Shown: piece by piece, positions 24,501 to 49,386 of the stretch | How the letters are laid out: each line of letters begins with the position of its first letter | Position numbering within the stretch: the first letter of the stretch is position 1 | Assembly (NCBI GenBank): GCA_037447655.1 | Contig: JBBHKE010003077.1 | Span: 82,696-146,695, forward strand | Reading direction: 5' to 3' | Origin: Zygnema cylindricum | Taxonomy: Eukaryota > Streptophyta > Zygnematophyceae > Zygnematales > Zygnemataceae | Length of the DNA stretch: 64,000 nt | Made by a program: the position numbers and the translations under genes | The notes under the pieces: model-generated | Seen by the model: only the letters and a program-made list of their open reading frames with translations | What the model was told of the DNA's origin: nothing | The model's database searches: none

Positions 24501-25863
24501 CACAAAAGAAGGGAATTGATTTCAAGGAAACCTTTGCCCTGGTCGTCAGATTTCCCTCCTTCCGCATACTTCTCAGCCTGGCAGCAGCGGAAGAAATGGA
24601 GGTGCACCAGATGTACATAAAGACAGCCATTTTGCATGGAGAATTGGCAGAGGAGTCTTCATGCAACAACCCGAAGGATTTGTGGAGGAAAGAGAGGAGA
24701 GTAAGTTATGCCGGCTGATTAAATCTCTTTATGGTTTGAAACAGGCGCCTCAACAGTGGAATAAGAAGCTAGATGAGTTTCTTACCGATCTGGGATATAT
24801 CCAGATCAGCTCAGATGACTTAATCTATGTTTTTGAAGATGAGGAATGTTTTATATTTATTGCAATTTATGTTGATGATTTGCTTGTTTTAAGTAAATCA
24901 ATGGAAAAAATTAATATACTAAAAACCGATCTAAAGGGGAGATTTGAAATGAAAGATATAGGGGAAGCAAAATATATTTTGGGAATTCAAGTAGAAAGAG
25001 ATCGAAAAAGGAAGATTATAAGATTGAATCAAAAGGAAGCAATAGGGAACATGCTTGAAAAATTTCAGATGGATAAAGTTAATAGTTGTACAACTCCAAT
25101 GGAGTTAAAAAAGGGAAGTGAGGGAAGTGAGGAAGAATGAGTCATAGTCTTAGACGAGGAATTAAGTCCTGAAAAACAGAAGTTCTTGCAGACTATTCCA
25201 TACATGAAAGTAGTGGGAAGTCTAATCTATTTTATGAATTGTACCCGGCCAGATTTAGCTGCAGCTGTAGGAGTGCTGAGTAGAAGTCTAAATGCTCCCA
25301 CTAAGAGGGATTGGGAGGCAGGTAAGAGTGTCCTTAGATATTTGATAGGAACTAGGGATCTATGATTGCATTTGGGTGGGGAGAATAGTGCCATCGCTAC
25401 TAGGAGTGATGCCAGTTATGGTGATGCTCTGATGAGGAGATATACTTCTGGATATGTATTATATGTGGGTGATGGGGCTTGCTGTTGGAGTAGCAAAGAG
25501 CAAAAGGTTATTGCTCAGTCCACCATAGAGGCAGAGTATATGGCCTCTTGCTCTGCTCTAAAAGAATTGATGTGGGTCAAGTCTTTGCTTGGTGAGCTTG
25601 GTCACCTTAAGAGTGGTGTGCATAATTTTTTTTTCGATAATCAAGCAGCAATCGCTATTTCTGCCAATCCTAAACATCATTTTAAAGCGATACACGTGGA
25701 CATTAGAGTAAGTTTTGTTAAAGAGAAAGTAGAAAACAAAATAATCAGTTAAGAGTACAGACCAGATAGCGAGATGGTTGCAAATATGATGACCAAACTT
25801 GTGCCTTCCCCTAAGCTCATTTTTCTGCTGGGAGAAGTGTGGTCTAAAATTAAAAATTGACTA
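21527..25863 (+). pseudogene. Copia-2 Gag-Pol polyprotein, decayed
   Basis: Complete domain order: Gag, CCHC knuckle (CHFCKKPGHYMAEC near 22410), protease with IIHSGASMHIC at about 22655 (catalytic Asp changed to His), integrase zinc domain (MWHKRLGHVN...CCGCAHGK) and core, RT (GCKWVFKLKLNPDN, IAIYVDDLLVL near 24870), and RNase H to about 25850. Many stops break it, among them TGG to TGA (21946), CAA to TAG (22007), CGA to TGA (24171) and TGG to TAG (24377), judged against Copia-1. It is the same family as Copia-1 but older. Confidence 0.92.
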
Positions 25864-25877
25864 GAAAATAAGGGGAG
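25864..25877 (+). other. Copia-2 polypurine tract
   Basis: GAAAATAAGGGGAG lies just before the 3' LTR, and is the same as in elements X and Z. Confidence 0.8.
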
Positions 25878-26953
25878 TGTAGAAATTGATGGTCCTTTTT
25901 AAGTATTTTCTAGGTCTAAATAGAAATACAAAAAGAAGCGGAGGCAGTCTATCTCTAACTTCTCTCTCCAACTCCCACACTTGTCGCAGTCATTGAGAAG
26001 TTGGAGAGGAAACAAGAGCCATGGCTACCTTGGCTATCCAAAGGTTTACGGGAAATAGATTAGTTGATTTATTGAATGGTAGTTTGGTAGTTTATATACT
26101 AAAAGAAATAGTGATGCAACCAGTATTTGATCCTGGAACTTGCCGGACGTCAGGAAACCGGTAGCCGGTAACGTTATCTGTTAGGTCTAAAACTAATGAT
26201 ACATGATATAGGATTTCATATTTATTTATACATTATTACGTAGGATATTTCATTTAACGGAATTGCTTACGGTATACATAGAGTCAGTTATGTAGAAGTA
26301 CGGGTTACGGTACGGATAAGAAACAAGTACCGCGCATTTGTTTCTTTAAACGAAACAAATACCGCGCAAGTATTTATGACGGCTCTGATTGAAATCTGCA
26401 TTCAATCGGACGGCCGCAATGAAAGCGGAGATCGCGGAAAAGAATCTCGGCGGTTTGTGGTCATCGCCACATTGGATGACACGTGGCAAAATTGCGTTGG
26501 ATCGTGTTATCTCCGGGAGTTACGAGACCGAATCCGGATATGACACGTGTCGACTTTTTGGCCATATCGTACAATATCCGTACAGAAATTATATCCGCAG
26601 CTGTACTTTTGTGTACGGAAGTGTAATATAATTGGCTCCGTACGTCAATAGATAGACTCTGTAAGAGAGATATGAATTAGAAAAAATTGGTAGATAGGAC
26701 CCTCTCTCCCATAGAGCTTTTGTACTAAAGGTCAACTTTGACCCTCCATAACTTACTGCTCAGGGGAGCAAATTCAAAGATTCTTTTTGCTATCGACTCA
26801 AAAGAGTCTTGCCTTCACAGATGTGAAGGTGGTCAGAGTTTTTGTTTGCTAGGGTGGCAGTTATTCTTGCTGAAATACAAAGGGGTCAGGGTTATCCTAG
26901 AGGCTTCATGGAAGTTGTCCACTCTGAGGACTTATGGAGGTCTCAGAATTTCA
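25878..26953 (+). repeat. Copia-2 3' LTR
   Basis: 1076 bp, TGTAGAAATTGATGG to AGAATTTCA, followed by TTAAT of the target duplication. It holds an antisense tRNA-like segment and the hairpin series as in the 5' copy. Confidence 0.92.
26113..26200 (-). other. tRNA-like segment antisense within Copia-2 3' LTR
   Basis: Minus strand CCAGGATCAAATACTGG forms a T-arm with loop ATCAAAT and mostly paired stems. It has the same position and direction as in the 5' LTR. Confidence 0.6.
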
Positions 26954-27256
26954 TTAATGTGGGTTAAATCCTTGCTGCAAGAATTAGGGTATATGAAGGA
27001 GCGAGTGTATGAAGTGTTTTGTGATAATCAAGCTTCCATTGCAATTGTAGCTAATCTAAAACATCATTTTAAAGCTAGGCATATGGACATAAGATTGAGT
27101 TTTGTGAGGGAAAAAGTTGGGAATAAGATTGTGAATCTTGTATATAGATCCGATGAGGAAATGGTGGCTGATATGATGACAAAACCAGTGCCCTCTCATA
27201 AATTGAAATATTGTAGAGAAAAATGTGGACTAAAACTAAAGGTAAAATTAGACTAG
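26954..27256 (+). pseudogene. Copia-X RNase H end
   Basis: Open frame MWVKSLLQELGYMKERVYEVFCDNQASIAIVANLKHHFKARHMDIRLSFVREKV...VADMMTKPVPSHKLKYCREKCGL: the conserved C-terminus of Copia RNase H including CDNQ and HIDI-type motifs. It follows in frame from the part before Copia-2. The stop is natural and is followed by the polypurine tract (27256-27269). Confidence 0.9.
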
Positions 27257-27269
27257 AAAATAAGGGGAG

Positions 27270-28295
27270 TGTTGAAATTTATAGATTTCTAGAGTATTTT
27301 CTAGGTTTAAATATGTTAGTATAAAAAGAAAAGAAAAAGACGGACAACCTACCTCCACCTCCTTTCTCTAGCCCCCATACTTATTGTAGTCAGTGAAAGA
27401 TAGAGAGGGTGGTTGATCCATGGCTGCCTTAGTTAAACAGGCATTTATTTGTAGTAGGTTACTAAAAATATACCTGACGGACCCGGGATTTGATCCAGGT
27501 ACCTGCTGTTTGTCAACATGGCCGATAGCGGTCAGCTTTATCCTATTAGACTAGGACCAATGCTAAATGCTATAGTATGTGATAAATATATATGTATTTA
27601 GGAGGGAACAAATTCATTTAACTGAAACTCGATACACCATGCATTGATACAGTTTTATAAAGTACAAAGTACAATACTATTTTGAAATGGATACCGCACA
27701 TTTTGTTTCAACAGCGAAAAAAATATCGCGCAAGTATTTATAACGGCTAAGATTGCATTTCGAGTCAAATCCAACGGCGCACATCATCTTAGAAATCTCA
27801 GAATATTCACTTTGGCATTTAGTGACGTGGCATGACCTGGCGCCACATGGAGAGATAACATTCGGTCGCGGGAATTCCGAGGATCGTACGGACGAGTGGA
27901 AAATGGACACGCGTCTGCTTAATGGCCTTGTCGTACAAAAAGTATATCGCAGTAGTAATTTTATGTACTGTACAGTATTCTGATTGGTTCGTAGAGTTAG
28001 TAGATAGGGGTTGTGAGAGGGAGCTATGACTTAGAAAAATCTGGTAGATGGTCTTCTCTCTCTTTGAGAGGTTGAATAAATTTGCATTTTTGGCTGCCTA
28101 TAATTTATCGCCTGGCTGGGCGTTTTCAGAGATACATTTTCCTACGGACTCAAGGGAGTCCACGGTGCACAGGGGTGTAGTCATATTGTCTGCTTGTCTT
28201 CTTGGGTAGCAGTGGTTTCCATTGAAAGTGGGTAAGTTAATAACTATCTAGAGGCTTCCTGTACTCTATAGTCCAATGGAGGACACACAGTTTCA
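27270..28295 (+). repeat. Copia-X 3' LTR; first half of a 1.9-kb repeat unit
   Basis: 1026 bp, TGTTGAAATTTATAG to CAGTTTCA, next to the X polypurine tract. A near-identical copy of exactly the same length is at 30543-31568. Hairpins are CGCC-GGCG (28109-28122) and GGACTC-GAGTCC (28146-28161). Confidence 0.85.
27476..27562 (-). other. tRNA-like segment antisense within Copia-X LTR
   Basis: The minus strand shows TAGTCTAATAGGATAAAG (D-arm/box A like), the hairpin GACCG-CTAT-CGGCC, and a T-arm with loop ATCAAAT. The loop starts with A, as in initiator tRNA, where elongators have T. It is 206-292 bp from the LTR start. Confidence 0.7.
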
Positions 28296-29182
28296 ACTGA
28301 GGGATAGAGAGGGTGACTGAGCCATGGCTGTCCTAGCTTAAGCAAGTAGGGCTAAAGAGTGACTTATGTCACTCTCAACAAAAGGTTGAGTTCGGCAAGA
28401 CTCCAACCTCCGACCGGCAGAGCGCTGCGTAGCCGTTAGCTCTAGCCAGTCTGTCGTAGAAGTCTGTTAGGATATATTAGGTTTGATATATGTTTAAACA
28501 GTGTTATTACCATGAATTCGATTAACGGAATGACGAACGAAGGAACATAAAACCAAGAATTATATAGTGCGAACATTATCTCGCGCGAAAATAAATGAAT
28601 CGGACATTTGTTTTGACGGCGGACATTTAATGTCGGATTTAATCCGACGATGTATATCACTGCCGAGATCGCGGAATGGTCACTTTGGCGTTTATGGACG
28701 GGCATGACGTGGCGCCACGCGGAGGATGACATTTGGTCAAAGGAATTCCGGGGAACATAAGGACAAGTTAAAAGTGGACACGCGTCCACTTAATGGCGTT
28801 GCCGTACATAGGCTGTACAGTAAGTACATCAGCCATAGTACTTTTCTGTACCCTACAATGATCTGATTGGTTCTTACTTCAATAGATAGGGGTTGTGAGA
28901 GGGATTTAGGACTTAGAGAATTTGGTAGATAGGTACCTCTCTCCCTTTGAGAGTTTGTATAAAAATGGCATTTTTGCCGACTCATAACTTATCGGCTAGT
29001 TGGCCGTTTTCAGTGATTCATTTTGCTACGGCCTCAGCGGAGTCCAGGCTGCACAACGGTGTAGTCAAATTTCAGTTTGGTTTCTTGGACATCAGTGGTT
29101 GTGGCTTGAAGTGGGTTAGTTATATACTATCTACAGGCTTCCTGTATTCTGTAGTCCAATGGAGGACACATAAATTGCAGTA
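28296..29182 (+). repeat. Second LTR-like half of the 1.9-kb unit
   Basis: It resembles the preceding LTR from about its base 130 onward (GGATAGAGAGGGTGAC, CCATGGCTG, hairpins, GTAGTCCAATGGAGGACACA) but is strongly diverged and lacks the LTR start. TATAAAAA at 28959-28966 is a likely TATA box about 30 bp before hairpins CGGC-GCCG (28993-29006). It is repeated at 31569-32455. Confidence 0.72.
28381..28450 (-). other. Degenerate tRNA-like segment in second LTR half
   Basis: Minus strand TGGCTAGAGCTAACGG, then GCTCTGCCGGTCGGAGG and GGTTGGAGTCTTGCC, resembling box A and a damaged box B. It has the same order and direction as the other LTR copies. A second copy is at 31653-31722. Confidence 0.4.
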
Positions 29183-30542
29183 CTGCGCCGGCCGTGTGAA
29201 TTGTTTTATTTTTTATGACGGTCGACGTTCGCAAGCGCGACACTTTATTAACCGCCGTTACAATATTTCGCCAGTCAAATTTGTTCGACGGGTTGACCGT
29301 CAAATCTGAGATCAAAGGTACGTAGCCTGCACGAAACTGTACTTCAAATGTACAATTTCTGACAACTACCTGCGCGCAGCAAAAAACGTCTCTGCGATTA
29401 GCAATTCCCAACAAATATCATAAGTTTCGAAATCGCCAAAAAGGCAGCTCCATCGGGGGTTGCAAGAAATTGAACCTCTTCTTATCAATTGAACTGGAAA
29501 TTTAGACGGTGGTTCCATTAGGCTGCGCCAATAAATGTTAAAATGCGTTAACTGATGCCCTTCGTTCCATTGTGAAGGCCATCGTTCCATTATGTCGGGT
29601 CGATAACCGACCTTTTTATTGCGTGGCACATGTTGGTTGGCTCCACTATTCCGATCGTGCGAATCTATATAAAATCTTTGACAACAAATAGGTGATAACG
29701 CAATATCTGTACCACCCGAGGGAAAGTGAATCGTACAACATTGAATAAAATATGTACGAGCGCATGAAAGTGTACGTACAGTGCACATCAAACGATTTCG
29801 GAATTTTAAAAATTTGTACCTCATTTTGATTTTCAAGTTTCAAAATTTTTAAATATTCAATACCCTGAAAAACTGAAAAGTGCAACGAACAACGACGGAA
29901 TTTACATCGTCTCCAACGGCGGCTTCTTTTTGAAAACGGGGTGGAGGACGGATAAAAATACGCGCGTGCAAATGAAGCAACGTTCTTTTTTATTACGTAC
30001 GTACAAATTTTCGTACAGTGTGAAACGTACGAAATTTTGCGAAACCTACTGTGTAGTTTTTCAGGAAAAAATTGAAATTCGTACGAATTGGACAACTATC
30101 GTACGAAAATGCCAGAGTCGTCAGTGGATGGCAACAGGAGCATGAAATAATATCCTCTATCAAATATTTTGTCACGGCTTCCGGTGGCGTTACATCCACC
30201 CTGGCGCAAGGCACAAGTCATATGCGATGTGTAGGCACCCGATTGCGCGTTCATCGTGGATATTTTATCACTTTTCCACGAGGCGCAGTGCCATACGTTC
30301 GGGTTCTCACAATTGACCTCATTCATGTCACTTGTTACAAACCGAAACTTTCGACCCGATTGCGTACATGATTCTACGTTTAACAGTCAAGGTTTACGTC
30401 CATAACATTAAAGAATCGAGTCAGTCATTAAATAACTTTTTTTCTTACAAGTTAAAATAAAATGGTACGGGACTGTACGAAACAGTAAGACATATAGTTA
30501 ACAACCTTATTTTTTCCTTAAATGGAACTTCACCCTTACTGG
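29183..30542. other. Non-coding spacer holding an inverted dispersed repeat
   Basis: 1360 bp between the two 1.9-kb units. I see no convincing gene. Ends near 29503 (GGTGGTTCCATTAGGC) and 30535 (minus strand GGTGAAGTTCCATTTAAGG) form imperfect inverted repeats, so a roughly 1-kb DNA transposon is possible. The part 29810-30110 is the reverse complement of a family also present at 32580-32830 and 33110-33290. Confidence 0.45.
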
Positions 30543-32455
30543 TGTTGAAATTAATAGATTTCTATAGTATTTTCTAGGTTTAAATATGTTAGTATAAAAG
30601 GAAAAGCAAAGGACAGACAACCTGCCTCCACCTCCTCCCTCTAGCCCCCATACTTGTTGTAGTCATTAAAGGATATAGAGGGTGGTTGATCCATGGCCGC
30701 CTTTGTTCAACAGGCAGTTATTTTAAGTAGGATACTAAAAATATACCTGACGGACCCGGGACTTGATCCCGGTACCTGCCGTTCGTCAAGTTGGCCGATA
30801 GCGGTCAACTTTATTATATTAGACTAGGACCAATGCTAAATGCTATAGTATGTGATAAATATATATGTATTTAGGAGGGAACAAATTCATTTAACTGAAA
30901 CTCTATACAGCATGCATAGATACAATTTTATAAAGTACGAAGTACGATACTACTTTGAAATGGATACCGCACATTTTGTTTCAACAGCGAAAAAAATATC
31001 GCGCAAGTATTCATAACGGCTAAGATTGCATTTTGAGTCAAATCCAACGGCGCACATCATCTTAGAAATCTCAGAATATTCACTTTGGCATTTAGTGACG
31101 TGGCATGACCTGGCGCCACATGGAGAGATAACATTCGGTCGCGGGAATTCCGAGGAACGTACGGACGAGTGGAAAATGGACACGCGTCTGCTTAATGGCC
31201 TTGTCGTACAAAAAGTACATCGCAGTAGTAATTTTATGTACTGTAAAGTATTCTGATTGGTTCGTAGAGTTAGTAGATAGGGGTTGTGAGAGAGAGCTAT
31301 GACTTAGAAAAATCTGGTAGATGGTCTTCTCTCTCTTTGAGAGGTTGAATAAATTTGCATTTTTGGCTGCCTATAATTTATCGCCTGGCTGGGCGTTTTC
31401 AGAGATTCATTTTCCTACGGACTCAAGGGAGTCCACGCTGCACAGGGGTGAAGTCATATTGTCTGCTTGTCTTCTTGGGTAGCAGTGGTTTCCATTGAAA
31501 GTGGGTAAGTTAATAACTATCTAGAGGCTTCCTGTACTCTATAGTCCAATGGAGGACACACAGTTTCAACTGAGGGATAGAGAGGGTGACTGAGCCATGG
31601 CTGTCCTAGCTTAAGCAAGTAGGGCTAAAGAGTGACTTATGTCACTCTCAACAAAAGGTTGAGTTCGGCAAGACTCCAACCTCCGACCGGCAGAGCGCTG
31701 CGTAGCCGTTAGCTCTAGCCAGTCTGTCGTAGAATTCTGTTAGGATATATTAGGTTTGATATATGTTTAAACAGTGTTATTACCATGAATTCGATTAACG
31801 GAATGACGAACGAAGGAACATAAAACCAAGTATTATATAGTGCGAACATTATCTCGCGCGAAAATAAATGAATCGGACATTTGTTTTGACGGCGGACATT
31901 TAATGTCGGATTTAATCCGACGATGTATATCACTGCCGAGATCGCGGAATGGTCACTTTGGCGTTTATGGACGGGCATGACGTGGCGCCACGCGGAGGAT
32001 GACATTTGGTCAAAGGAATTCCGGGGAACATAAGGACAAGTTAAAAGTGGACACGCGTCCACTTAATGGCGTTGCCGTACATAGGCTGTACAGTAAGTAC
32101 ATCAGCCATAGTACTTTTCTGTACCCTACAATGATCTGATTGGTTCTTACTTCAATAGATAGGGGTTGTGAGAGGGATTTAGGACTTAGAGAATTTGGTA
32201 GATAGGTACCTCTCTCCCTTTGAGAGTTTGTATAAAAATGGCATTTTTGCCGACTCATAACTTATCGGCTAGTTGGCCGTTTTCAGTGATTCATTTTGCT
32301 ACGGCCTCAGCGGAGTCCAGGCTGCACAAGGGTGTAGTCAAATTTCAGTTTGGTTTCTTGGACATCAGTGGTTGTGGCTTGAAGTGGGTTAGTTATATAC
32401 TATCTACAGGCTTCCTGTATTCTGTAGTCCAATGGAGGACACATAAATTGCAGTA
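30543..32455 (+). repeat. Second 1.9-kb unit (LTR plus LTR-like half)
   Basis: 1913 bp, the same length as 27270-29182 and differing at only a few bases. It contains an LTR (30543-31568) and the second half (31569-32455). The two units behave like LTRs of a non-autonomous element or like a recent segmental duplication. No clear primer site or polypurine tract borders the spacer. Confidence 0.85.
30749..30832 (-). other. tRNA-like segment antisense within second unit
   Basis: Minus strand CCGGG-ATCAAGT-CCCGG is a perfect 5-bp T-stem with a 7-base loop. It is preceded by CTAGTCTAATATAATAAAG and a GACCG-CTAT-CGGCC hairpin. This is the best paired T-arm of the set. Confidence 0.7.
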
Positions 32456-34810: not shown

Positions 34811-35915
34811 TGTCATGCTGTAAGACGTAGGCGTGTATTTTTACGTAATCTTATACTAACTGATGGTTAAGTGACGTGACAGGTTCATATTCGGTAGTAA
34901 AACTGGAGGTACGATCAAGACAAAGATTTTTTACGTAATCTTATACTAACTGATGGTTAAGTGACGTGACAAGTTTATATTCGGTAGTAAAACTGGAGGT
35001 ACGGACGGGACAAAGACCAGATTGTACTCACGTACGGCACAATGTAAACGCGATTTGAAATCAGCGTGGAACTGGACCGCGGTACGGCATCAGACGTCAG
35101 GAATTTAAGCGGCTACAAACCTGACAGATGTCCGAAGTCATGAACCCTTGAAGGTTCATGCATTATTTTTGCTTAGCTTAGGGAGGGTTTTCTACCTCGC
35201 GGTGTAGATGTAAGGCACAACGAGGCGGCCACGCAGCGGTCGTCTCCAAAAACTGGCAGCGTTTGCACATGGAAACCTGCAAGCTCAAAGACACATATGA
35301 ATTAGTGTAGCCGTACGGATTAGTGAAAGCATAGAATAAATGCCATATAGCGAGATAGTAACTTTTGCAAATTAAGTACGGGAATCAAACATTGGAAGGT
35401 TGTCGTTTTCTAACAAGTATTATTCTCGAGATTTGTCGAACTCTATTGTTAGGGTTTCACCTAAATATTTAGTGACTAGCTAGTTTTTGAGTTAGGGTTT
35501 TTCCTTTTTCAGACCCATAGTTTCATGCTAGTAATTGTCTCTGAGCTTCTCCTTTTCTTTGTATTAAGACCTTACCTAATCTACCGGCGCAAGCCAGCCT
35601 GCAAGGTTTCCCTCCAGACTATGTTCTACTTGTCGTGGTGAACGAATTGTGTTGTGCGGATTCGGTGTTTTCTTGCTAGGTTTCCCTCCAGACTGTGTTC
35701 TACTTGTCGTGGTGAACGAATTCTGTTGTGCGGATTTGGTGTTTTCTTGCTGTCAGAGCGCTGACTTGGTGGTCTGGTTCCAGTTCTGTCTGGCTTTGTG
35801 GGAATACCGGCTATTTCGGCTCTTTCAACCGGTTAGGGAAGGGTTCAGGTCCGCTGGTTGGACTCCTGTAGGGAATATTAAAAGACTTCAGAGCCTAGTG
35901 GCTACTGTCGCAAAT
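34811..35915 (+). repeat. LTR-like module A of the methyltransferase gypsy element, 5' copy
   Basis: It starts TGTCATGCTGTAAGACG and is related over about 0.9 kb to 42600-43533 and 45782-46716. It carries a conserved palindrome CATGAACC-AGGTTCATG (about 35148-35169). It differs from the other copies by a 90-bp tandem duplication near 34838-35018 containing GTGACGTGACA. The similarity ends at GTCGCAAAT, so the true LTR 3' end is uncertain. Confidence 0.7.
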
Positions 35916-37109
35916 ATTCCCGTACTTAATTTGTTTCTTTTCTAATTTTCGTTATTCCTTGTGGCAATTTGTTTTCTTCGTGACGACTTATTGTAATTTG
36001 CTTTTCTTTTTCTGTCAAGCATTTATTAGTTGTTTGTTTTCTTGTCTAGTCTAGTGGTTTTCTTTGGATTGCTTTAATCTGTTTTTACTTTCAATTTTTA
36101 GGGTTTCGTTGCTTGGTGGGCTTTGGGTTCGATTTTTTTGATTTTTTCTGTAAATCCGGTATAGTTTCTCTTTTTGTCTGCCTACCGGATTAACTCACTC
36201 AAAAAACTTAGTAAACCTAAAAATTTATAAAAAATATATATATATATTAAAAACCAAGAGAAAAAAATATATATATATATATTTAAATATATAAAGTAGG
36301 TTGCACGAATTATCAAATAAAATTATAACTGCTTTAATAGTTGGGTAGAGCGTGGCTTAAAGCTGATACGCGTACCTTAACATGCTACTAACTACGTTGG
36401 TATTTTGAGCTATGATCTCTTCTCGACAATTCGGTCTTAGAGGGAGGTTGGAGCATCGCTAGAGACCTTACAGATCGCTCCAGGTGAGTAATCGGGTCCT
36501 TGTGGTTGCAGGCGCGTGATAGGTTGTTAAGCGCGATAACCTAGAGGGGTTAGGATCCAACCGAAGGCTGTGCCTTCCTTTTCGCATAGGCAATGTGGTT
36601 GCCATTTCTTTAGATCAGACCGTGATCAGTCTTGGATAGCGACTTCTTGCCTATTACACTTGGCTTTGTTTGGCCAAGATAATTTCTTGTTTTATTACAT
36701 CTGGCTTTGTGGGCCTTGGTTAGTTTCCTGTTTACTACATCTGGCCTTGTAGGCCTTGAATAGTTTTCTGTTTTATTAAATCTGGCCACAAGTGGCCTTG
36801 CAAAGGTGACATGTTTCTTTCTGGAGTGGTTTGAAGTGACTTGTTATGGTATTGCTTAGATCTGGCTCTGAAAAGCCTTGGTAGGGGTATTCACGATTAG
36901 ACTAACCCTGGTGATACAGAATAGATCAAATCGTTTACGGGGGTGTTTATTTGCGTGGGTGCTTGTTTGCGTGGGTGCTTGTTTGCGTGAATTTGAAGAC
37001 TTACTGTGTGATTTGATTATAAGATCTGGCGGCGGGCATTTGCACGCTGACCCTGAGTAGGGTCTTGCATCTAGTTGCATCCGGATAGGACGACTGTCTG
37101 TTTACATGC
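35916..37109 (+). other. Leader region with microsatellite and 40-bp minisatellite
   Basis: There is no recognisable gag frame where gag would be expected. It holds an AT run at about 36226-36290, a 40-bp repeat (four copies at 36645-36805, each with TTTATTACATCTGGC...GGCCTTG), and a small repeat GCGTGGGTGCTTGTTT at 36953-36985. Confidence 0.55.
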
Positions 37110-37254
37110 TGAAACTCTGAGACCTCCATAAGTCCTCAGAGTAGACAGCTTCTAAGAAGCCTATAGGATAATCCTGACCCCTTTGTGTTTCAGCAAAAAT
37201 AACTGCCACCCTGGCAGACAAAAACCCTGACCACCTGCACCCCTGTGAAGGCAA
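37110..37254 (-). repeat. Fragment of a Copia-1-type LTR
   Basis: TGAAACTCTGAGACCTCC to TGTGAAGGCAA matches the primer-site end of the Copia-1 LTR (3497-3641). It begins with the LTR terminal TG and stops exactly before the protease motif of the gypsy element. So it replaced, or joined across a deletion of, the gag-to-protease region. Confidence 0.85.
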
Positions 37255-37255
37255 A

Positions 37256-37546
37256 GATACAGGCGCAAAGCCAATTATCCTCAGTTTTGATTTTGCCATC
37301 AAAATAGGTCTTACATCAGATAAGTTACAACCCACTACCACACGTCTATTGACTGCCACAGGTACCACAGAGCTAGTCCTCGGTATTACGATTGAACCCA
37401 TCTGTTTTCAGTTTCAGAGTCAGTCAGCGATAGATTTCGCAGAAATTTATGCTCACGCCTTGGTCACCAAGTGTAGTGACTATGAAAGTTTGGTCGGTCA
37501 AGATGTTATTTTTCGAGTTGGGGGGGGGGTTGATATGCATGATTAG
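37256..37546 (+). pseudogene. Aspartic protease of the methyltransferase gypsy element
   Basis: 97-codon frame beginning with the catalytic DTGA (37256-37267), then IILSFDFAIKIGLTSDKLQPTTTRLLTATGTTELVLGITIEP and ESLVGQDVIFRV. This is the usual retropepsin order: active site, flap region, then a YDVLLG-like motif. The N-terminus is lost to the Copia LTR fragment. A G10 run at 37520-37529 and a TAG follow. Beyond the stop, TFSYRPNNFPERKI in the same frame looks like family sequence, so the stop is probably a mutation. Confidence 0.8.
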
Positions 37547-37662
37547 ACATTTTCGTACAGACCGAACAATTTTCCGGAACGTAAAATTTGCTTACCCCTT
37601 ATCTCGGCCCGACAACCCATGCCTACTACGGCCCATTCGGCGCTGATCTTGCCAGCCTAGGC

Positions 37663-39202
37663 CGAAGTTGGCATAGGTGCAGACATCCTTGAATCTCTAA
37701 CAGCAGATGAAATCTCACGAGATTTCTTGGGTTTACCAGAATTATTTAGTACACCGGGATATATCATAAACTCTTCGGAGTTTGACCAGCTTTATAAATT
37801 TACTATACCAATACTTTTATCTAGTATTCCAAATCCACCCTCCATTACAATGGATCCGTCTGGGTTCCTGCCTATTAAATGGACACCAGTCAATTTACAA
37901 CCTCACCAAAACGGTCTCGTTATCTTCGACCTTTTTGCAGGAATAGGGACTTCACTTCTCTCTTGCCTTCGAAACAGTCTTTTTATAAAGCATTACTATG
38001 CCGTAGATATTGACCCTTTGGCTAGACGCGCTCAGTTGCACCACTGTCAAGTCTTACACGAACAGTATCCTCATCTCTTACCTCAGTCTGCTTTTCACAA
38101 TATGCATTCGGCGTTGCCACAGGATATCCGGCTAATAGGAAATCATCATTTAATAGAATTGGAACCAATTGATCTCCTCTTTGCCGGATGGGAATGTCAG
38201 GGTATGTGTAGGGCCGAGAAAGGTTTAGGTCTCGCAGATCCACGTACTAAGTTGTTTTTCGAGGTGGTGCGTCTTATCCACTTCTTCCAAAAACTGGACC
38301 GTCCTTTTGGATACATCTTAGAGAACGTCGCAGCTTATAATGACCCTCGACCTACGGTTCTCGCAGATTATAAACGCATTGAATCATTAATTGGACCACC
38401 ACTGATCATTGATGCCGCACGCCACGGTTCGCTTGCCCACCGAGTTCGTTCCAAGTGGACTAACCTGGTGGACATGGGTCGGCTCCGAGAGGCTAACCTC
38501 GCTGTCCGACCACCTAACCTTTCCATTCAGGATGCACTTCTTCCATTTCATAAAGTCCAGACATGTATACTGACAGACTATCCTCCTGCATTTGGTCTTA
38601 ACATCCCGGGCCAGCCACTACGTGCACTGCCTACACTAGTTGCATATCCACACTCTCACGCATACTCACATAATGGACCGGGCATGCTTCAGAATACTCA
38701 TACAGGCAGCTTAGAAGAACCTACTGCCACAGAACGAGAACATCTTTTACATTTCATCTCAGGCACCACTACAGCTCCGGGACTCACTAACAGGCAGCGG
38801 TGCACCTTACTTGGTCGTGTCATTGATCCCCAATCGGTGTCATTTGTTTTAGGCATGGGGTTCGCAGCTGGTCGATACGCACAGAACCATCCGTCTCAAT
38901 CAGCAGGGGGGGGCATACACCATTTAAACATAAACCATTTAAACACACAACTTCCACGTCCTCACCTTCTCTTCGGGGCACAACTTTTCAGCTTGCTCTT
39001 TTTCCTTTCCCCGCTCAATCTGACACAGATCACACTATTTATGATTTTTTGGAACCTAGTCACAAGAGTTGGTCTCTCCCAGCATACACGGCCGCTAGAT
39101 CTCAGGTACCGGTACGGGCATCACCACACTAGACAGCTGCATTTCCATCGAAAGTTGGCATCACGCAGTAAATTGTTTGCATCAGCTTCCTGTCAAGTAT
39201 GA
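37663..39202 (+). CDS. C5-cytosine DNA methyltransferase domain in a gypsy polyprotein
   Basis: Open frame of more than 500 codons; numbering here is from codon 37727. Motif I FDLFAGIGTSL (67-77, AdoMet binding), motif II YAVDIDPLA (91-99), motif IV AGWECQGM with the catalytic Cys157, TKLFFEVVRL, motif VI ILENVA (197-202), motif VIII HRVRSKWTN (238-246), RALPTLVAY and LLGRVIDPQSVSFVLG (motifs IX and X). The enzyme would methylate cytosine in DNA, perhaps the element's own cDNA. The motif order and LFFEVVRL resemble the DNMT3 group and green-algal retrotransposon methylases as I recall them. The usual PCQ is ECQ. After a G8 run at 38906-38913 the frame seems shifted: the alternative frame gives DHTIYDFLEPSHKSWSLPAYTAAR, so the last 95 or so residues are probably artefact. 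It was once one polyprotein with the protease and RT; no own start codon is evident. Confidence 0.9.
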
Positions 39203-40320
39203 GTTGGGTCACTCTTTGATAGCAGATGAACAGCTGGCATTTGCACAAGCCATGGAAGCTATGACCATTAACACGCCTGAAAAACCGACATGGAAATTCG
39301 GAACTGGACTGACAGAAACTGAACACGAACTGTTAAATGAAGTCATAAACCGAAACGTAGACGCATTTGCTTTCTCCATGAAAGACTTGGGTCGACACAC
39401 CACTTACAAAATGTCTTTTGACCTGGAAGATGACAGACCTATATTTAAGCCCAAGCATCGTTTATCCCAAACTGAATGGGAATCTGTAGACAAACAATGC
39501 GCGGAGTTAGAAGAGGCAGGTCTGATTTTATAGGTCCGATTCCACCTTTGCGGCGCCCACCGTCATGCCTCGTAAAAAAGATGCGGAGGGGAATTTTACA
39601 GAACGTCGCATGTGTGGGGACTATAGAGAACTGAATGCACGTACAATCCAAGACCGACATCCAATGCCATTGGTTGAGGACATTTTTGATCATGTTGGGG
39701 GAGCTAAATATTTCAGCATCCTAGATCTGCGACAAGGACTTAATCAAATCGAAATAGAGGAAAAAGATCGACACAAAACTGCTTTTTGGGGTAGTGACGG
39801 ACGTTGGGAATGGGCGGTTATGCTCTTTGGACTGAAGAATGCACCGGCAGTATTCCAGAAAGTCATGGACTCAGTCTTGGGGGGGTGTGAGTTTGCCCGT
39901 TGCTATATTGTCAATCTAATCATCGTTTCAGCTTCTATAGAGGAAAATGCATTGCATATAGAGTGGGTGTTGAAGGAATTAAAAAAAGTGGGACTTAAAT
40001 GTCATCCTGCCAAATGTACCTTTGGGGCCGAAGGGGTCCCATACCTTGGGCATTTTATCTCATCTGAGGGAATTACTCCGCTAGAAGTCAAAGTGGAAGC
40101 AATTAATAAACTACCGGCTCCAACTGATTTGACTAGCCTGCGTGAATTTTTAGGGTTAGCCAATTATTACCGGCGTTTTGTTCCTAGTTTCAGCACACTT
40201 GCATCTCCATTAAATGAACTCTTGAAGAAATCAGTCCCGTTCACGTGGGGACCCTCTCAGATTGAGGCATTTCAGGGATTAAAGGACGCACTCTCCACCG
40301 CTCCTATTCTTCGCCCCCCC
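39177..40320 (+). pseudogene. Reverse transcriptase of the methyltransferase gypsy element
   Basis: It begins with the connector (LTETEHELLNEVINRNVDAFAFSMKDLG) and RT fingers (KPKHRLSQTEWESVDKQCAELEEAGLI). A stop and frameshift at 39533-39545 follow, then STFAAPTVMPRKKDAEG, MCGDYRELNARTIQDRHPMP, FSILDLRQGLNQIEI, FGLKNAPAVFQKVMD, and thumb/connection LGLANYYRRFVPSF. The catalytic box reads CYIVNLIIVS: the two aspartates of YIDD are Val and Asn (39910-39915). The first Asp of LDL is kept. So this copy cannot polymerise, even apart from the frameshifts. Confidence 0.92.
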
Positions 40321-40328
40321 ATCATAAG

Positions 40329-41162
40329 TTGCCATTTTGCCTACAGACGGACTTTGGTAAGCCCGGTATTGCAGCCATCCTAACTCAGCGTGAACTCACA
40401 GGTGAGGAATATGTGGTGGTTTATGCCAGTCAGAGCAACAATCAAGCGGAGTCAAATTACAGCAGTTACGAGGGAGAATGCCTCACCGCAGTTCGGGGTA
40501 TTGTGCATTTCCGACATAATCTCTATGGCAAGCCTTTTACTCTCCTTACTGACCACCAACCATTGCATTGGCTCATGACCAATGACAAGCTATCCGGCAA
40601 ATTAGCCCGTTGGGCTCTTATTTTGCAAGAATATGACAGGGAAATAATCCATCGACCCGGGCTCCTCAGTTTGAATGCCGACGGCATCTCCAGGAACCCT
40701 TTCCCCCACTCCAATGATAATGGTGTACGACAAGATTTTGATGACGAATCGGTTGCCTCCTTATCAGCTGGAGCACATCTGATTTACAGTTTTGCAGCAC
40801 CTACAAACCACAAAACCGAACACAATCCATGGCGGGACAGTGCTTTAATTCTTTTTCTCTCTACTCAGTATTTTCGGGATGGCACCCTACCAATGGAAGA
40901 AGGGTGTGTTCGTAAGAGAGCCCAAAGTTACCTATGGATGGGGGGCTCACTTATTCGTCTTCTCTCAGATGGAACTCACTGGCATGTCCCACGGACGACG
41001 GAACGACTATCACTTATCAACCAAATTCATACTGACCTTGGACACTATGGCACCAAACGGACTTTGAGTTTGGTACAGGCACGATATTGGTGGACACTAT
41101 GGCACCAAACGGACTTTGAGTTTGGTACAGGCACGATATTGGTGGTCCGGCATGCAGGCTGA
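40329..41162 (+). pseudogene. RNase H and integrase zinc region of the gypsy element
   Basis: RNase H: LPFCLQTDFGKPGIAAILTQ (Asp), YSSYEGECLTAVRGIVHFRHNLYG (Glu), LLTDHQPLHWL (Asp), IIHRPGLLSLNADGISRNP. The integrase zinc domain starts INQIHTDLGHYGTKRTL. It is out of frame with RT at a C7 run near 40315. The frame is then ruined by an exact 52-bp duplication at 41040-41143. Confidence 0.9.
41040..41143 (+). repeat. Exact 52-bp tandem duplication
   Basis: 41040-41091 equals 41092-41143. The unit starts GGACACTATGGCACC and ends ATATTGGT. Since 52 is not a multiple of three, it shifts the integrase frame. Confidence 0.97.
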
Positions 41163-42119
41163 TGTGGCGGCTGTGTTGCAGGAATGCAATACATGTGACC
41201 GGTTACGAACTTCATTTTCTAACCGACAGACCTCTCTTCAACCATTGTCTATTCGCGGTCTCTTTTACAGGTGGTCGTGTGACTTGGCTGGTCCCTTTCC
41301 AATCTCGCGAAGGGGCAAGCAGTACATTATAATTATAATCTAGAATTTCAGCAAATGGGTGGAAGTTGTGGGCCTCTCGCAGAAAACCGCCAAACTCACC
41401 ACTGCAGCTTTCAAACAGCATGTGCTTCTCCGATACGGAGCCCCCGCAAAAGTACTCACCGACCAAGGAATCGAATTCCGTGGCGAATTTTAGGAGATGC
41501 TGGACGAAGCATTAATCGATCACCGGCGGACGAGCAGAGATCATCCTCAAGCAAACGGTTTGGCAGAGAGAGCTGTACAAACCTTTAAGCGTGCTTTGCG
41601 TAAACATTGCTTAGAAAAACAGATTACGTTGTGGGATGAATCATTGGGATATATTGTCATGGGTTATCGCATGTCTGTACAGGCCAACCTGGCAAATTTC
41701 AGCCCCTATTATGTGTTGTTTGGTCGAAAACCACTACTAGGTAGGAATGTATAGAAAGCCGCGAGCTTACCTCTACCTCTTATGTCTGATTCTCAGTTTT
41801 TGGAAGAACTAACTAACCGAGCATTGCTTTTCGCTAGAGAAATGCCCATTGATTTTGAAAACTTGCAGATTGCCCAAAATCGCGACTCCTTACGGTTTGC
41901 AACAACTCGCAGTGGCAGTTACCGGCCACAACAAAAACCCTTCCGGGTGGGGGATTACGTTTATTTGCGACGGCAAACTTTTGATACACTCGACACGGAT
42001 GTTTCAGCTCACATCTTGAGGATAACAAAAATCGACCCGAATGGATTATTAAGCCTACAAAGGGCCGACAGCATTCAAAGAATTGTGCCCCCTGCTATCT
42101 ACCCGATCTTTCCCACAGC
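41116..42119 (+). pseudogene. Integrase of the methyltransferase gypsy element
   Basis: LVQARYWWSGMQADVAAVLQECNTC completes the HHCC zinc site. The core has the first Asp in WSCDLAGPF, the second in VLTDQGIEF and Glu in HPQANGLAERAVQTFKRAL, all kept. In-frame TAGs interrupt at about 41341, 41491 and 41752. The C-terminal part (FRVGDYVYLRRQTFDTLDTDV, ILRITKIDPNGLLSLQ) is the usual SH3-like DNA-binding region. The frame continues uninformatively to 42243, overlapping the PHD finger in another frame, so a frameshift lies near 42110. Confidence 0.9.
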
Positions 42120-42335
42120 ATGGACCCGTGGCGGATGCCGATTACCGAGGCCATTGAGTGCCAATTATGCCGGCGATCTGATGGAGAAACAACAATGCTC
42201 CTCTGTGACTATTGCAATCTGGGATTCCATATGGAGTGTTTAATTCCACCTCTGCACACTATCCCGGCTGGACAGTGGTTTTGCCACGGGTGTCGCGACC
42301 TACCGGCTGTCCTTACCAGCTCCCCCGCAGGCTAA
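42120..42335 (+). CDS. PHD finger at the end of the gypsy polyprotein
   Basis: 72 codons carrying a complete C4HC3 zinc pattern: C14, C17, C29, C32, H37, C40, C55 and C58, with MLLCDYCNLGFHMECLIPPL and GQWFCHGC typical of PHD fingers. PHD fingers bind histone H3 tails, so this may steer integration or cDNA to certain chromatin, taking the place a chromodomain has in chromoviruses. It was probably the C-terminus of the integrase polyprotein. The ATG at 42120 may not be a real start, since the integrase frame just upstream looks shifted. Unlike its neighbours it has no damage. A stop is followed at once by a G14 run. Confidence 0.88.
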   Translation: MDPWRMPITEAIECQLCRRSDGETTMLLCDYCNLGFHMECLIPPLHTIPAGQWFCHGCRDLPAVLTSSPAG

Positions 42336-42355
42336 GAAGCTGGGGGGGGGGGGGG
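42336..42355 (+). other. Polypurine tract candidate with G14 run
   Basis: AAGAAGC, T and fourteen Gs (42342-42355) directly after the PHD frame. It could prime plus-strand synthesis if the LTR begins with module B at 42356. The length of the G run may be unreliable. Confidence 0.45.
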
Positions 42356-42599
42356 ATTCCATACTTACTTACTTGATCTTGCTTTGTCTTTTTTTTTTCT
42401 TGCTATGTCCATGTGTTTGGAATAATTTGTTTTTCCGGGCAGATTCATTTATTGTTTTTTGCGTTATATATGCTTTGTACTCCTATTGTGGTCACAAATA
42501 TTGTATATATGCAATGGTCATTCATTTTCTGGTGTTTATCAGCGACCCACACTGGTTGTTATGCATGCCATTCACGGTTGTACTGCCATGCACGACAAC
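42356..42599 (+). repeat. LTR module B, first copy
   Basis: ATTCCATACTTACTTAC to CATGCACGACA plus AC; the same module occurs at 43534-43711 (truncated) and 46717-46975. It is T-rich with no gene. Confidence 0.75.
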
Positions 42600-43711
42600 T
42601 GTCATGCCGTAAGACGTCAGCGGGTATTATGATTTATTTGTGTACTAATTCATGTTTCGGTGACGTGACAGGTTCATATCGGAGAGTACAACTAGAGATT
42701 CGTACGGGACAAAGGTTGGAATATACTCTCGTACGGCGCCACGGGAACACGATGTGAAATCAGCGTGGAACTGGACCGCGGTACAGCATCAGACGTCAGG
42801 AATTCAAACGGCTACAAACCTAACAAGTGTCTGAAGTCATGAACCATTGGAGGTTCATGCATCATTTTTGCTTAGCTTAGGGAGGGTTTTCATCCTCGAG
42901 GTGTAGATCTAAGGCAGTCCGAGGCGGCCACGCAGCGGTCGTCTCTTGAAACTGGTAGCATTTTGACATAGAAACCTGCCTGCTCAGAGACATGTAGGAA
43001 TTAGAGTAGCCATACGGATTAGTGAAAGCATAGGATAAATGCCATTTGGCGATATAGTAACTTTTGCAAATTAAGTACGGGAATCCAACATTGGAAGGTT
43101 GTCGTTTTCTGGCAGGCTTTTTCTCGGGATTTGTCGAACTCTATCGCTAGGGTTTCACTAATTTTCACCTAAAATTTAGTGACAGGCTAGTTTTTGAGTT
43201 AGGGTTTTTCCTTTTTCAGACCCATAGTTTCATGCTAGTAATTGTCTTTGAGCTTCTCCTTCTCTTTGTATTAAGACCTTACCTAATCTACCGGCGCAAG
43301 CCAACCTGCAAGGTTTCCCTCCAGACTGTGTTCTACTTGTTGTGGTATACGAATTGTGTTGTGCGGATTTGGTGTTTTCTTGCTGTCAGAGCGTCGACTT
43401 TGCGGTATAGTTCCAGTCCTATCCGGCTTTGTGGGAATACCGGCTATCTCGGCTCTTTGTGGGTTCTTGTCCGTTGATTGGACTCCTGTAGGGAATATTG
43501 ATGACTTCAGGGCCTAGTGGTTACTGTCGCAAATGGGGAATTCCATCCTTACTTACCTTATCTTGCTTTGTCTCTTTGTTTTCTTGCTATGTCCATGTGT
43601 TTGGAATAATTTGTTTTTCTGGGCAGATTCATTTATTGTTTCTTGCGTTACATATGCTTTGTACTCCTATTGTGGTCACAAATACTTTACATATGTAATG
43701 GTCATTCATTT
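42600..43711 (+). repeat. LTR copy: module A plus truncated B
   Basis: Module A (42600-43533) starts TGTCATGCCGTAAGACG and is nearly identical to 45782-46716. Module B follows at 43534 but is cut at 43711. Only two bases (AC) lie between the end of the preceding B module and this LTR start. Confidence 0.78.
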
Positions 43712-45781: not shown

Positions 45782-46975
45782 TGTCATGCCGTAAGACGTC
45801 AGCGGGTATTATGATTTATTTGTGTACTAATTCATGTTTCGGTGACGTGACAGGTTCATATCCGAGAGTACAACTAGAGATTCGTGCGGGACAAAGGTTG
45901 GAATATACTCTCGTACGGCGCCACGGGAACACGATGTGAAATCAGCGTGGAACTGGACCGCGGTACAGCATCAGACGTCAGGAATTCAAACGGCTACAAA
46001 CCTGACAAGTGTCTGAAGTCATGAACCATTGGAGGTTCATGCATCATTTTTGCTTAGCTTAGGGAGGGTTTTCATCCTCGAGGTGTAGATCTAAGGCAGT
46101 CCGAGGCGGCCACGCAGCGGTCGTCTCTTGAAACTGGTAGCATTTTGACATAGAAACCTGCCTGCTCAGAGACATGTAGGAATTAGAGTAGCCATACGGA
46201 TTAGTGAAAGCATAGGATAAATGCCATTTGGCGATATAGTAACTTTTGCAAATTAAGTACGGGAATCCAACATTGGAAGGTTGTCGTTTTCTGGCAGGCT
46301 TTTTCTCGGGATTTGTCGAACTCTATCGCTAGGGTTTCACTAAGTTTCACCTAAATATTTAGTGACAGGCTAGTTTTTGAGTTAGGGTTTTTCCTTTTTC
46401 AGACCCATAGTTTCATGCTAGTAATTGTCTTTGAGCTTCTCCTTCTCTTTGTATTAAGACCTTACCTAATCTACCGGCGCAAGCCAACCTGCAAGGTTTC
46501 CCTCCAGACTGTGTTCTACTTGTTGTGGTATACGAATTGTGTTGTGCGGATTTGGTGTTTTCTTGCTGTCAGAGCGTCGACTTTGCGGTATAGTTCCAGT
46601 CCTATCCGGCTTTGTGGGAATACCGGCTATCTCGGCTCTTTGTGGGTTCTTGTCCGTTGATTGGACTCCTGTAGGGAATATTGATGACTTCAGGGCCTAG
46701 TGGTTACTGTCGCAAATGGGGAATTCCATCCTTACTTACCTGATCTTGCTTTGTCTCTTTGTTTTCTTGCTATGTCCATGTGTTTGGAATAATTTGTTTT
46801 TCTGGGCAGATTCATTTATTGTTTCTTGCGTTACATATGCTTTGTACTCCTATTGTGGTCACAAATACTTTACATATGTAATGGTCATTCATTTTCTGGT
46901 GTTTATCAGCTGTTTATCAGCGACCCACACTGGATGTGATGCATGCCATTCACGGTTGTACTGCCATGCACGACA
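45782..46975 (+). repeat. Complete LTR: modules A plus B
   Basis: 1194 bp with matching inverted ends: TGTCATGC at the start and GCACGACA at the end. This is the best evidence that the LTR is A followed by B. The same palindrome CATGAACC...GGTTCATG is at 46020-46041. There is no internal region beside it, so it may be a solo LTR. Confidence 0.72.
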
Positions 46976-47772: not shown

Positions 47773-49386
47773 ATGGCTGCAGAAGAAACGCCCTTAGCAG
47801 TATTTCAACCACAAATAAGCTTCACTCTCTATGGTAACAAGGTACTTCAATTTTTTTCTGTTTGAGAGCAAATATTGAAGTTTAGATGCATGCACTTTCT
47901 GTGTTGCAATTGCTTTTTGAATTCGTTTTAAGGTTTGCAGGTTCTGTAGCAATCTTTTTTATGAACTATTTTTATGTTGACAAGTTACTAACGGACATAC
48001 TGAAAAAAGGTATACCATAATAAACATCTATTTTTCTGCTCATTTGAAATTTGATGACGTAGTATTCAAATCAAAACTACACTGCCCATGGTTATTATAG
48101 CTAGTAACACTATTTCGGTCGCGATCTTTTTTGGCCGAAATCACAAAATAATGTTAACAAAACTATTAAAGGGAGTGGATTGCAGTATGCCACGTCTACT
48201 TGCACTAAATTAGTATTTTTATTCTAATTTCACGTTAACACTAATAAAGTCTTAACGCTAATAACGATAGGCAGTGTAGATAGTGCCTAGTGAAACTGAA
48301 TTTTTTCTTAACTCATTGCATCCTAAATCCTGACTTTTTTTCCGTTTTATTCTCCAGAAAACCGGAAAAATCATATACTTGGAGGCTGGTAAGGAATTCG
48401 TCGATCTTCTGTTTTCTCTACTCCTCCTGCCGCCAGCCACGATATTCAGCCTATTGGCTGATAGCATTCCTCTTAGTGATGCCTTTGGATCCGTACAGAA
48501 TCTGTACGAAAGTGTATTCAAACTGCATTATCAGTACTTGCTGTTCAACAAAACTGAACTGACTTCCATAAAACTTCCTGCTCGTGCAGCTACAAGTGCC
48601 ATGGCCCAGTTAGGGAGTAACTGTACAGTCAACGATCTTGCAAATGGACAGTTTGTATATTACAAATGTGCCCGTTGTCCGAGAATAAGTACTATTCCTA
48701 ACAAATCTTGTACAAATTGCAATAATATTCATAACCAGAGACTTCAAATGGAAAACGACAATCCAAAAATAACTCCTGGATTCGTCAAGGAAGCAGTTCC
48801 GTTTATCGTAACTGACAGTTTGAATGTTCAACCGAGTTCTATGTCGCTAGCTTTTAAACTCTTGCAAGATGAAAACGTCGAAAACATAGGACACGTGGCG
48901 CAGCTGGACGTTGTGTTGGATATGAAAGAGGTAAAAAATATTTGGCAGTAAGTTTCAGTTTTGTCAAAACTATTGGAAGACAAAATATGTGCAATGGATA
49001 GGTGATTTTCCGATTTAGAATATTGTTTTGCTGATGATTAAAGATTGTAAATTCAAGAGTGTTTCTAAAATAGATATTATTTTTTTATGTTTTTACTAAT
49101 CGTTTTCTATCGTTGTTTTTTTAACGATTTTCATCAGGTAACAAATTTTTCACAATTGAAAGATTATTCAACTTGATTTTCAATGTTTTCATAGAGCTTA
49201 GGAACACCACAAAACCTTGCAAAACTCATCACAAGGTTTAATGCACCTCTTTCTTTATTTATTTTTTGGTTTCAGTTTCTTCAACTTGTGACGTCAGCAC
49301 ACAACAGTAAAATGGTTCTCAACGATGTTTTTGGCCAAAAGTTTCGTGATGCCAACCTAGATTTGCTCAAAGAAGTAAAAGAGTAA
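47773..49386 (+). CDS. DUF674 family protein (three exons)
   Basis: Exons 47773-47841, 48358-48930 and 49276-49386 join in phase 0 with GT-AG introns and give 250 residues. The protein starts MAAEETPLAVFQPQISFTLYGNK, then KTGKIIYLEAGKEFVDLLFSLLLLPPATIFSLL, the DUF674 signature; NLYESVFKL, a CPRI/CNNC cysteine region, GFVKEAVPFIVTDSLNVQPSS and DMKEFLQLVTSAHNSKMVLNDVFG also match the family in order. DUF674 proteins are plant proteins of unknown function; one-repeat members are about this long. An in-frame ATG at 47707 would add 22 residues, but family members start close to the conserved block. The end is less sure: the stop TAA overlaps a strong donor (GTAAGT), so another exon may exist. The gene converges with the RLSRG gene. 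Intron 1 holds a MITE. Confidence 0.85.
48080..48276. mobile_element. MITE in DUF674 intron 1
   Basis: 197 bp with inverted ends CACTGCCCATGGTTATTATAGC and the matching GCTAATAACGATAGGCAGTG, flanked by TA on both sides (48078-48079 and 48277-48278). Terminal repeats plus TA duplication suggest a Tc1/mariner (Stowaway-like) non-autonomous element. Confidence 0.82.

Follow-up and report, generated by a model that had tools for sequence, protein, structure and literature searches.

The 64,000 nucleotides of Zygnema cylindricum DNA analysed in this work (the window; assembly GCA_037447655.1, contig JBBHKE010003077.1, positions 82,696 to 146,695 of the forward strand; here contig C2310) contain at 34811-43711 a dead copy of a Ty3/Gypsy-type retrotransposon without gag. 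Its coding part, at 37256-42335 on the plus strand, encodes in this order a protease remnant, a C5-cytosine DNA methyltransferase of Dnmt3-like type (DNMT), a reverse transcriptase (RT), an RNase H, an integrase and a PHD finger, as seen in translations, Pfam and a search of PDB sequences. An initial annotation, made from the sequence, had proposed this order for one Gypsy element encoding both a methyltransferase and a PHD finger, and the order and every domain named in it were recovered. The limits which it gave to the element are those of the coding part; the element itself is larger, its split repeats spanning 34811-43711, and the death of the copy and the missing gag are points which that annotation did not contain.

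The window copy is most probably a decayed member of a large Ty3/Gypsy-type family, some copies of which are young, and in which DNMT and PHD are standing parts of a polyprotein with the order CCHC knuckle, protease, Dnmt3-like DNMT, RT, RNase H, DDE integrase and PHD. We assign to this reading of the anatomy a probability of about 0.8. Many copies of the family are present in the genome besides the one in the window. The young copy on contig C1344 has a single open frame of 2395 amino acids with DNMT (at 90357), RT with the YIDD active site, RNase H, integrase and PHD (94452-94718), the latter stopping just short of the polypurine tract. In the later 1073 amino acids of this frame Pfam recognises the RT, the RNase H, the integrase core and the PHD; no chromodomain is found in this part (E <= 0.01), the PHD being there instead. 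A CCHC knuckle (21.0 bits at a cut-off of 20.8) lies in the upstream part of the frame, together with a protease match which is below threshold but retains DTGA; a Pfam scan of the 455-amino acid piece upstream of these was without match.

In order to survey the family, the whole genome was searched (352.8 Mb in 2689 contigs) and the best candidates were scored, i.e. 123 of 782 for the DNMT profile, 111 of 1873 for the DNMT protein, 150 of 823 for the PHD and 136 of 3671 for the RT, so that the counts of pairs are lower bounds. At least 38 of the 111 scored DNMT protein matches have a listed PHD 3-6.5 kb downstream on the same strand, while the mirror position and the opposite strand yielded none, which indicates an association of the two domains beyond chance; with the list of the DNMT profile the figure is at least 22 of 123, the controls again being zero. 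All 150 scored PHD matches (the best of 823) have at least 60% identity.

The initial annotation had suggested checking whether both domains occur together in intact copies. Among the best 136 RT matches, fourteen are open over at least 900 amino acids without a stop, and twelve of these carry both domains (C561, C1344, C1407, C449, C1063, C2234, C2495, C2602, C2577, C750, C1506 and C1915). The two exceptions, in which no PHD was found, are broken copies: in C1112 the stretch in which the PHD is expected is occupied by a foreign RT in opposite orientation, and in C846 both DNMT and integrase are partial. Nineteen seemingly unpaired matches were checked, and at none of them did an integrase C-terminus of the family occur without PHD. 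Nine of these (of 73) are DNMT matches without listed PHD, two with a decayed PHD and seven with no integrase end of the family in the stretch. The other ten (of 112) are PHD matches without listed DNMT; six have correctly oriented DNMT remnants, one has a DNMT in opposite orientation and three have none. In ten loci of the first lineage, to which the window copy belongs, the stretch at the integrase end was fetched, and the PHD directly follows the integrase in eight; in L052 and L053 the fetched stretch lacks the integrase end or a part of it. Over both lineages, a PHD or PHD-like finger lies behind the integrase in all 17 copies with a recovered integrase C-terminus. Copies lacking one of the domains, or a PHD belonging to an unrelated gene, had been named as findings which would speak against the proposal; none of the 17 integrase C-termini is without a finger, and in C1344 the PHD shares its frame with DNMT, RT and integrase. 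On the basis of this frame and of the survey, one Gypsy family does encode both domains.

Of 30 DNMT loci fetched, six belong to the lineage of the window copy (74-94% identical), 23 are only 36-44% identical and one gave no match. Eight copies of this second lineage were sampled; six of them yielded the integrase end, and all six have a PHD-like finger, which in five is in frame with eight ligands and slightly altered spacing (read by eye), and in L063 matches in a shifted frame. The altered spacing is C-x3-C or C-x5-C, and the Pfam PHD scores of three copies are 21.2, 25.2 and 26.6 bits (cut-off 24). On C1374 a second-lineage DNMT and finger share one frame of 1520 amino acids (26816-31375), the openness of its middle (29066-30223) being taken from the frame length reported by the search and not from the letters; repeats were not found in the 4.9 kb upstream and 4.0 kb downstream. 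As the pair occurs in both lineages, it is either older than their split or was gained twice.

Selection was estimated from open frames of nine PHD, seven integrase, four DNMT and three RT stretches. Between close copies the ratio of non-synonymous to synonymous divergence (omega) of the PHD is 0.05 (L050/L057) and 0.04 (L058/L060); further pairs, in which changes are few, range from 0 to 0.25. When sublineages are compared, synonymous sites have reached saturation at a non-synonymous divergence (dN) of 0.08-0.17. The DNMT has a dN of 0.15-0.16 with saturated synonymous sites, and an omega of 0.21 (L044/L048) and of 0.32 (L034/L035, on two changes). The pattern of RT and integrase is similar. 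Purifying selection on DNMT and PHD indicates that the domains are kept for use, and their retention in two lineages makes the pair a lasting feature and not a local accident.

The copy in the window is called dead because of frame changes (six against the open frame of C1344, between 37256 and 42323), in-frame stops, the change of the RT active site from YIDD to YIVN and a 52-bp tandem duplication within the integrase. The stretch with the decayed protease is 92.8% identical to the C1344 frame and aligns with it in frame, with DTGA kept. Pfam matches were obtained for RT (PF00078, E 2e-21), RNase H (E 2e-30) and the integrase zinc domain (E 1e-14). The positions of all features are given in Table 1. 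The 146-bp stretch found in place of gag recurs in the window at 3496, 21523 and 26953, and 53 bp of it at 12844; some of these recurrences lie beside Copia-type frames and one at the start of such a frame.

Table 1. Features of the retrotransposon copy and of the adjacent repeat unit in the window.
Feature	Position	Strand	Identity or basis
Split repeat A1, left (starts TGTCATG)	34811..35915	+	85-87% to A2 and A3
18 nt in A1, perfect complement of the primer-binding site	35368..35385	+	
Self-complementary primer-binding site, directly after A1	35916..35933	+	
146-bp recurring stretch in place of gag	37109..37254	+	Window self-matches
Decayed aspartic protease, DTGA kept	37256..37543	+	PF13975, E 0.007, below cut-off
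Dnmt3-like DNMT	37850..38959	+	Pfam, PDB sequence search, predicted fold
DNMT motif I	about 37928	+	
DNMT motif IV (WECQ), catalytic Cys at 38195	38189-38200	+	
DNMT motif VI	38321	+	
DNMT motif VIII	38441-38467	+	
DNMT motif X	38807-38821	+	
RT, frame 3 then 1, YIVN at 39904-39915	39150..40320	+	Pfam
RNase H and start of integrase zinc domain, frame 3	40314..41096	+	Pfam
52-bp tandem duplication, two copies, disrupts integrase frame	41039..41142	+	
Integrase (H2C2, D-D-E core, C-terminal domain), frame 1 with stops	41080..42072	+	
PHD finger, eight zinc ligands, end of Pol, frame 3	42159..42293	+	Pfam
Pol stop codon after PHD	42333-42335	+	
Polypurine tract (C and T at 42340-42341)	42336..42355	+	Sequence
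Split repeat B1 (terminates in GCACGACA)	42352..42597	+	
2-nt spacer between B1 and A2 (AC)	42598..42599	+	
Split repeat A2	42600..43534	+	
Split repeat B2, cut short	43535..43711	+	
Separate A3-B3 unit, TGTC...GACA	45782..46975	+	99% identical to A2-B2

The DNMT of the window matches PF00145 (E 9e-10) and contains motifs I (DLFAGIG), IV (GWECQG), VI (ENV), VIII (RVRSKWTN) and X (LLGRV), the five which the initial annotation had listed. All 29 PDB sequences which it matches (E <= 0.01) are Dnmt3. An AlphaFold2 model built from seven sequences reached in the best of five versions a predicted local distance difference test score (pLDDT) of 79, with 58-59 in the other four, and a predicted template modelling score of 0.81. 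When compared to PDB folds, all 50 rows listed (of 184 at E <= 0.001) are Dnmt3, with template modelling scores (TM) of 0.77-0.82 by the length of an isolated Dnmt3 domain and of 0.56-0.65 by query length. The catalytic Cys, the ENV and RxR motifs and the nearest fold thus all place the domain in Dnmt3, a methylase of de novo type. A search of viral contigs by DNMT alignment gave 19 loci with 25-31% identity over part of the domain, one of which (L001) appears phage-like, and the PHD and RT pieces had no matches in the same contigs; the named rows of a viral fold library include C5-methylases of phages, giant viruses and a ranid herpesvirus, weaker than Dnmt3 by TM, the best E-value being close. 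A homologue search with the PHD listed six candidates without a score, too few to be plausible for a PHD, and was given no weight.

The nearest named relatives of the DNMT are from Mesostigma viride (P0003) and Closterium sp. NIES-68 (P0006), both Streptophyta, which together with the ENA record P0001 share the GWECQG motif and are 33-48% identical over the domain (P0001 48%). P0006 has a zinc knuckle and a protease in its precomputed Pfam list, P0003 a sub-threshold protease match and P0001 similar letters at the position of the protease; all three gene models stop within or shortly after the DNMT, short of any position at which a PHD could be expected. WECQ is found in P0001, P0002, P0003, P0004 and P0006, which are streptophyte and metagenome proteins, while P0007 has SPCQ and P0008 FPCQ. 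In the genome itself the second lineage keeps the proline of motif IV (WPCQ/PCQ) in all 23 loci.

The PHD finger, of a zinc-finger type which commonly binds histone tails, matches PF00628 with E 3e-11 and 43.7 bits against a cut-off of 24. Its eight zinc ligands, all of which had been recognised initially, form a complete Cys4-His-Cys3 set with the spacing C-x2-C-x11-C-x2-C-x4-H-x2-C-x14-C-x2-C, and they are kept in eight of nine fetched copies of the first lineage, one ligand being lost in L055. Among solved structures it matches the PHDs of PHF12, KDM5 (Lid), BAZ2B, KAT6A and DPF3 (E 9e-17 to 2e-11), with WSTF and PHF21A also among the closest; several of these bind unmodified H3 tails. The finger of the window is without the tryptophan of the H3K4me3 cage, two positions before the histidine. 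Given these relatives and the missing tryptophan, the best guess for the finger at the integrase end is that it reads unmodified H3K4. A structure prediction without alignment (pLDDT 39) was not used.

Instead of the single long terminal repeat (LTR) at each end of Ty3/Gypsy elements, the family has split repeats in the order A-coding-B-A-B, as found in the window, C1344, C829 and the older C449; the protease in front, the order RT-RNase H-integrase and the DDE integrase are those of Ty3/Gypsy. A1 and A2 of C1344 are 100% identical over 931 bp and its B1 and B2 99.6% identical, the corresponding values in C829 being 99.6% and 99.5%. C1407 carries B1, A2 and B2, its left end lying outside the stretch. 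The spacer of two nucleotides between B1 and A2 is GC in C1344, C829, C449 and C1407 and AC in the window. A polypurine tract lies directly behind the Pol stop, and seven further copies have a similar tract in this position. Two young copies are flanked by 4-bp target duplications (TTGG/TTGG in C1344, AAGG/AAGG in C829), as short as expected of an integrase; insertion, most likely by the DDE integrase, therefore uses the ends TGTC...GACA. In the window, A2-B2 and the A3-B3 unit share 99% identity, but A2 is only 85-87% identical to A1, which indicates that conversion or duplication has occurred; for this reason an age of the copy estimated from A1/A2 identity was rejected. A3-B3, two kilobases from A2-B2, is either a solo remnant (a product of A1/A2 recombination) or a duplicate.

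Directly behind A1 the primer site is the perfect complement of a stretch about 470-570 nucleotides upstream within A1. The site in C1344 has 18 nucleotides with one base changed on both sides with respect to the window, and in C829 (21 nucleotides) and C449 (15 nucleotides) it has other letters which still pair. Of 3000 random positions in the window, three had an upstream match of at least 16 nucleotides, some of them maybe the site itself. Self-priming by the 5' end of the own RNA is known from Tf1, and the arrangement suggests the same anatomy here. The RNA 5' end would lie inside A1 (35368-35385 in the window) and would prime reverse transcription next to A1; plus strand synthesis would start at the polypurine tract, so that reverse transcription would yield B-A repeats. 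The ends of the cDNA would then be joined (the A2|B2 joint), and the integrase would open the B|A junction (GACA-GC-TGTC), giving an insertion which ends in TGTC...GACA. Joining of the ends and opening of the junction would together explain the repeat order.

As to the roles of the two domains, the DNMT may methylate the new cDNA or the fresh insertion and so hide it among silent repeats, and the PHD fused to the integrase may steer insertion to silent chromatin by binding H3 tails, in which K4 would most likely be unmodified. This follows the initial annotation, which had suggested a writer marking the new DNA and a reader choosing the insertion site. For these roles we see less than an even chance. 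The more comprehensive proposal would be a writer-reader pair, in which the DNMT methylates the new copy and the PHD reads unmodified H3K4, inserting where host Dnmt3-type silencing acts, in an element which primes itself and passes through a circular intermediate with two repeats, opened by the DDE integrase at the internal GACA-GC-TGTC junction, i.e. a hybrid of Gypsy and DIRS; taken as one claim it is improbable.

A number of observations weigh against these proposals. Motif IV of the window lineage is ECQ and not PCQ, with glutamate for proline in all six fetched copies (one of which has a stop in the motif and another a serine replacing the tryptophan), so that catalysis by the DNMT is not certain. 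The observed/expected ratio of CpG is 0.77 in the coding part of the window copy versus 0.82 elsewhere in the window, while the three pieces of C1344 have 0.81-0.92; depletion is thus slight or absent and hardly points to strong self-methylation. From C1344 to the window copy, transitions occur most often at CG (48/496, 9.7%) and CHG (41/513, 8.0%), followed by CHH (66/1385, 4.8%) and A/T (95/2556, 3.7%), which fits methylation by the host as well. Since the model of the PHD was not usable, its histone specificity is a prediction from sequence. With respect to replication, split repeats were not seen in the stretches examined of C2577, C783 and C750, both ends were found in three of the seven copies in which they were sought, the flanks of C449 (TCAT/GCAT) have one mismatch, and the one basis for the opening of a circle by the integrase is the repeat order.

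Two alternatives concern the use of the domains. The DNMT may serve counter-silencing or defence, by competing with or misdirecting the methylation machinery of the host or by protecting the cDNA, with the PHD as a nuclear or chromatin tether without choice of site. The slight or absent CpG depletion fits this, the conservation of the domains in two lineages shows their importance and not their mode of action, and an anti-viral role has been proposed for transposon methylases (PMC6338049, in the part covered); however, the DNMT is of Dnmt3 type, and the abstract of de Mendoza et al. 2018 (PMC5890265) states that DNMTs of retrotransposons are capable of de novo CG methylation. We regard this alternative as doubtful. 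It is similarly unlikely that the PHD is a structural zinc finger, contacting RNA, DNA or protein in the intasome and reading no histone: the altered spacing and weak Pfam scores of the second-lineage finger would agree with it, but the first lineage matches solved PHDs such as that of PHF12 and keeps all ligands in nearly every copy.

That the split repeats are accidental, a solo repeat unit having come to lie beside the element, is very improbable. The closeness of A2-B2 to A3-B3 in the window and the three of seven other copies in which the order was not seen speak for it; against it stand the full order, near-identical repeats and flanking duplications of C1344 and C829, the order in C449, B-A-B in C1407, and the same order published for KnitGypsy-Dnmt3 (PMC5890265, parts covered). 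The reading as chance neighbours, with the PHD an unrelated gene which came to lie beside the integrase in this copy or the DNMT a stray host gene, was rejected as scarcely credible, since the different frames of PHD and integrase end in the window are offset by the single frame of C1344, by the many scored PHD matches and DNMT pairs with empty controls, and by the finger behind every recovered integrase C-terminus.

In chromoviruses a chromodomain is fused to the C-terminus of the integrase. The family described here resembles them in having a chromatin-reader domain at this position and differs from them in that it is a PHD, with a DNMT added. CR1-like non-LTR retrotransposons with a PHD were reportedly described by Kapitonov and Jurka in 2003; these elements are not known to have an integrase or a DNMT. 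Elements of DIRS/PAT type are excluded, as they have a tyrosine recombinase and no target duplication as opposed to the DDE integrase and 4-bp duplications found here.

The closest known element is KnitGypsy-Dnmt3 of Klebsormidium nitens (PMC5890265), which confirms that the methyltransferase-bearing retrotransposons named in the initial annotation are real. According to the parts of that paper covered, it has Gypsy-type domains with a Dnmt3-related DNMT inside the Pol frame, DIRS-like repeats in the order A-coding-B-A-B and purifying selection on the DNMT, as does the family of the window. Gypsy elements with a DNMT are therefore already known; a PHD does not occur in the main text of PMC5890265, although Fig. 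4c or the supplement might still show one, and neither self-priming nor target duplications are described for KnitGypsy-Dnmt3 in the parts covered. The same source reports SymbioDIRS-Dnmt3 and SymbioLINE-Dnmt of Symbiodinium, retrotransposons with a C5-methyltransferase which belong to other classes and have a tyrosine recombinase or an endonuclease instead of a DDE integrase. In the DNA transposon Ginger1-9_HM the C-terminal domains of a Gypsy-like integrase include a PHD; this element differs in its Ulp1 protease domain and in the lack of RT and DNMT (PMC2836005, passages covered). A 2025 survey places some Dnmt3 members in retrotransposons, there called Copia and DIRS; the single occurrence of PHD in it belongs to the funding statement. 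In a literature search, the titles and passages covered describe no PHD at the integrase end of a Gypsy element.

Judged by open frames, several Copia-type elements lie elsewhere in the window, at 262-3522 (-), 9418-12505 (+), 13752-15766 (-) and 18977-27256 (+). Another Gypsy-type stretch, at 5952-7052 (-), matches a Tf2-type SH3 domain but gave no PHD match. At 48334-48951 there is a gene fragment of DUF674 (E 1e-23), a family of unknown function known from plants; together with the streptophyte relatives of the DNMT it points to a streptophyte host, probably an alga.

Host genomes silence retrotransposons by DNA methylation and histone marks. That both domains have been kept while synonymous sites became saturated suggests that the element uses silencing marks and does not only flee them. 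The combination of split repeats, target duplications and self-priming anatomy raises the testable question of how such an element completes its DNA, and with this family it can be tested directly whether a retrotransposon writes its own silencing and selects silent sites.

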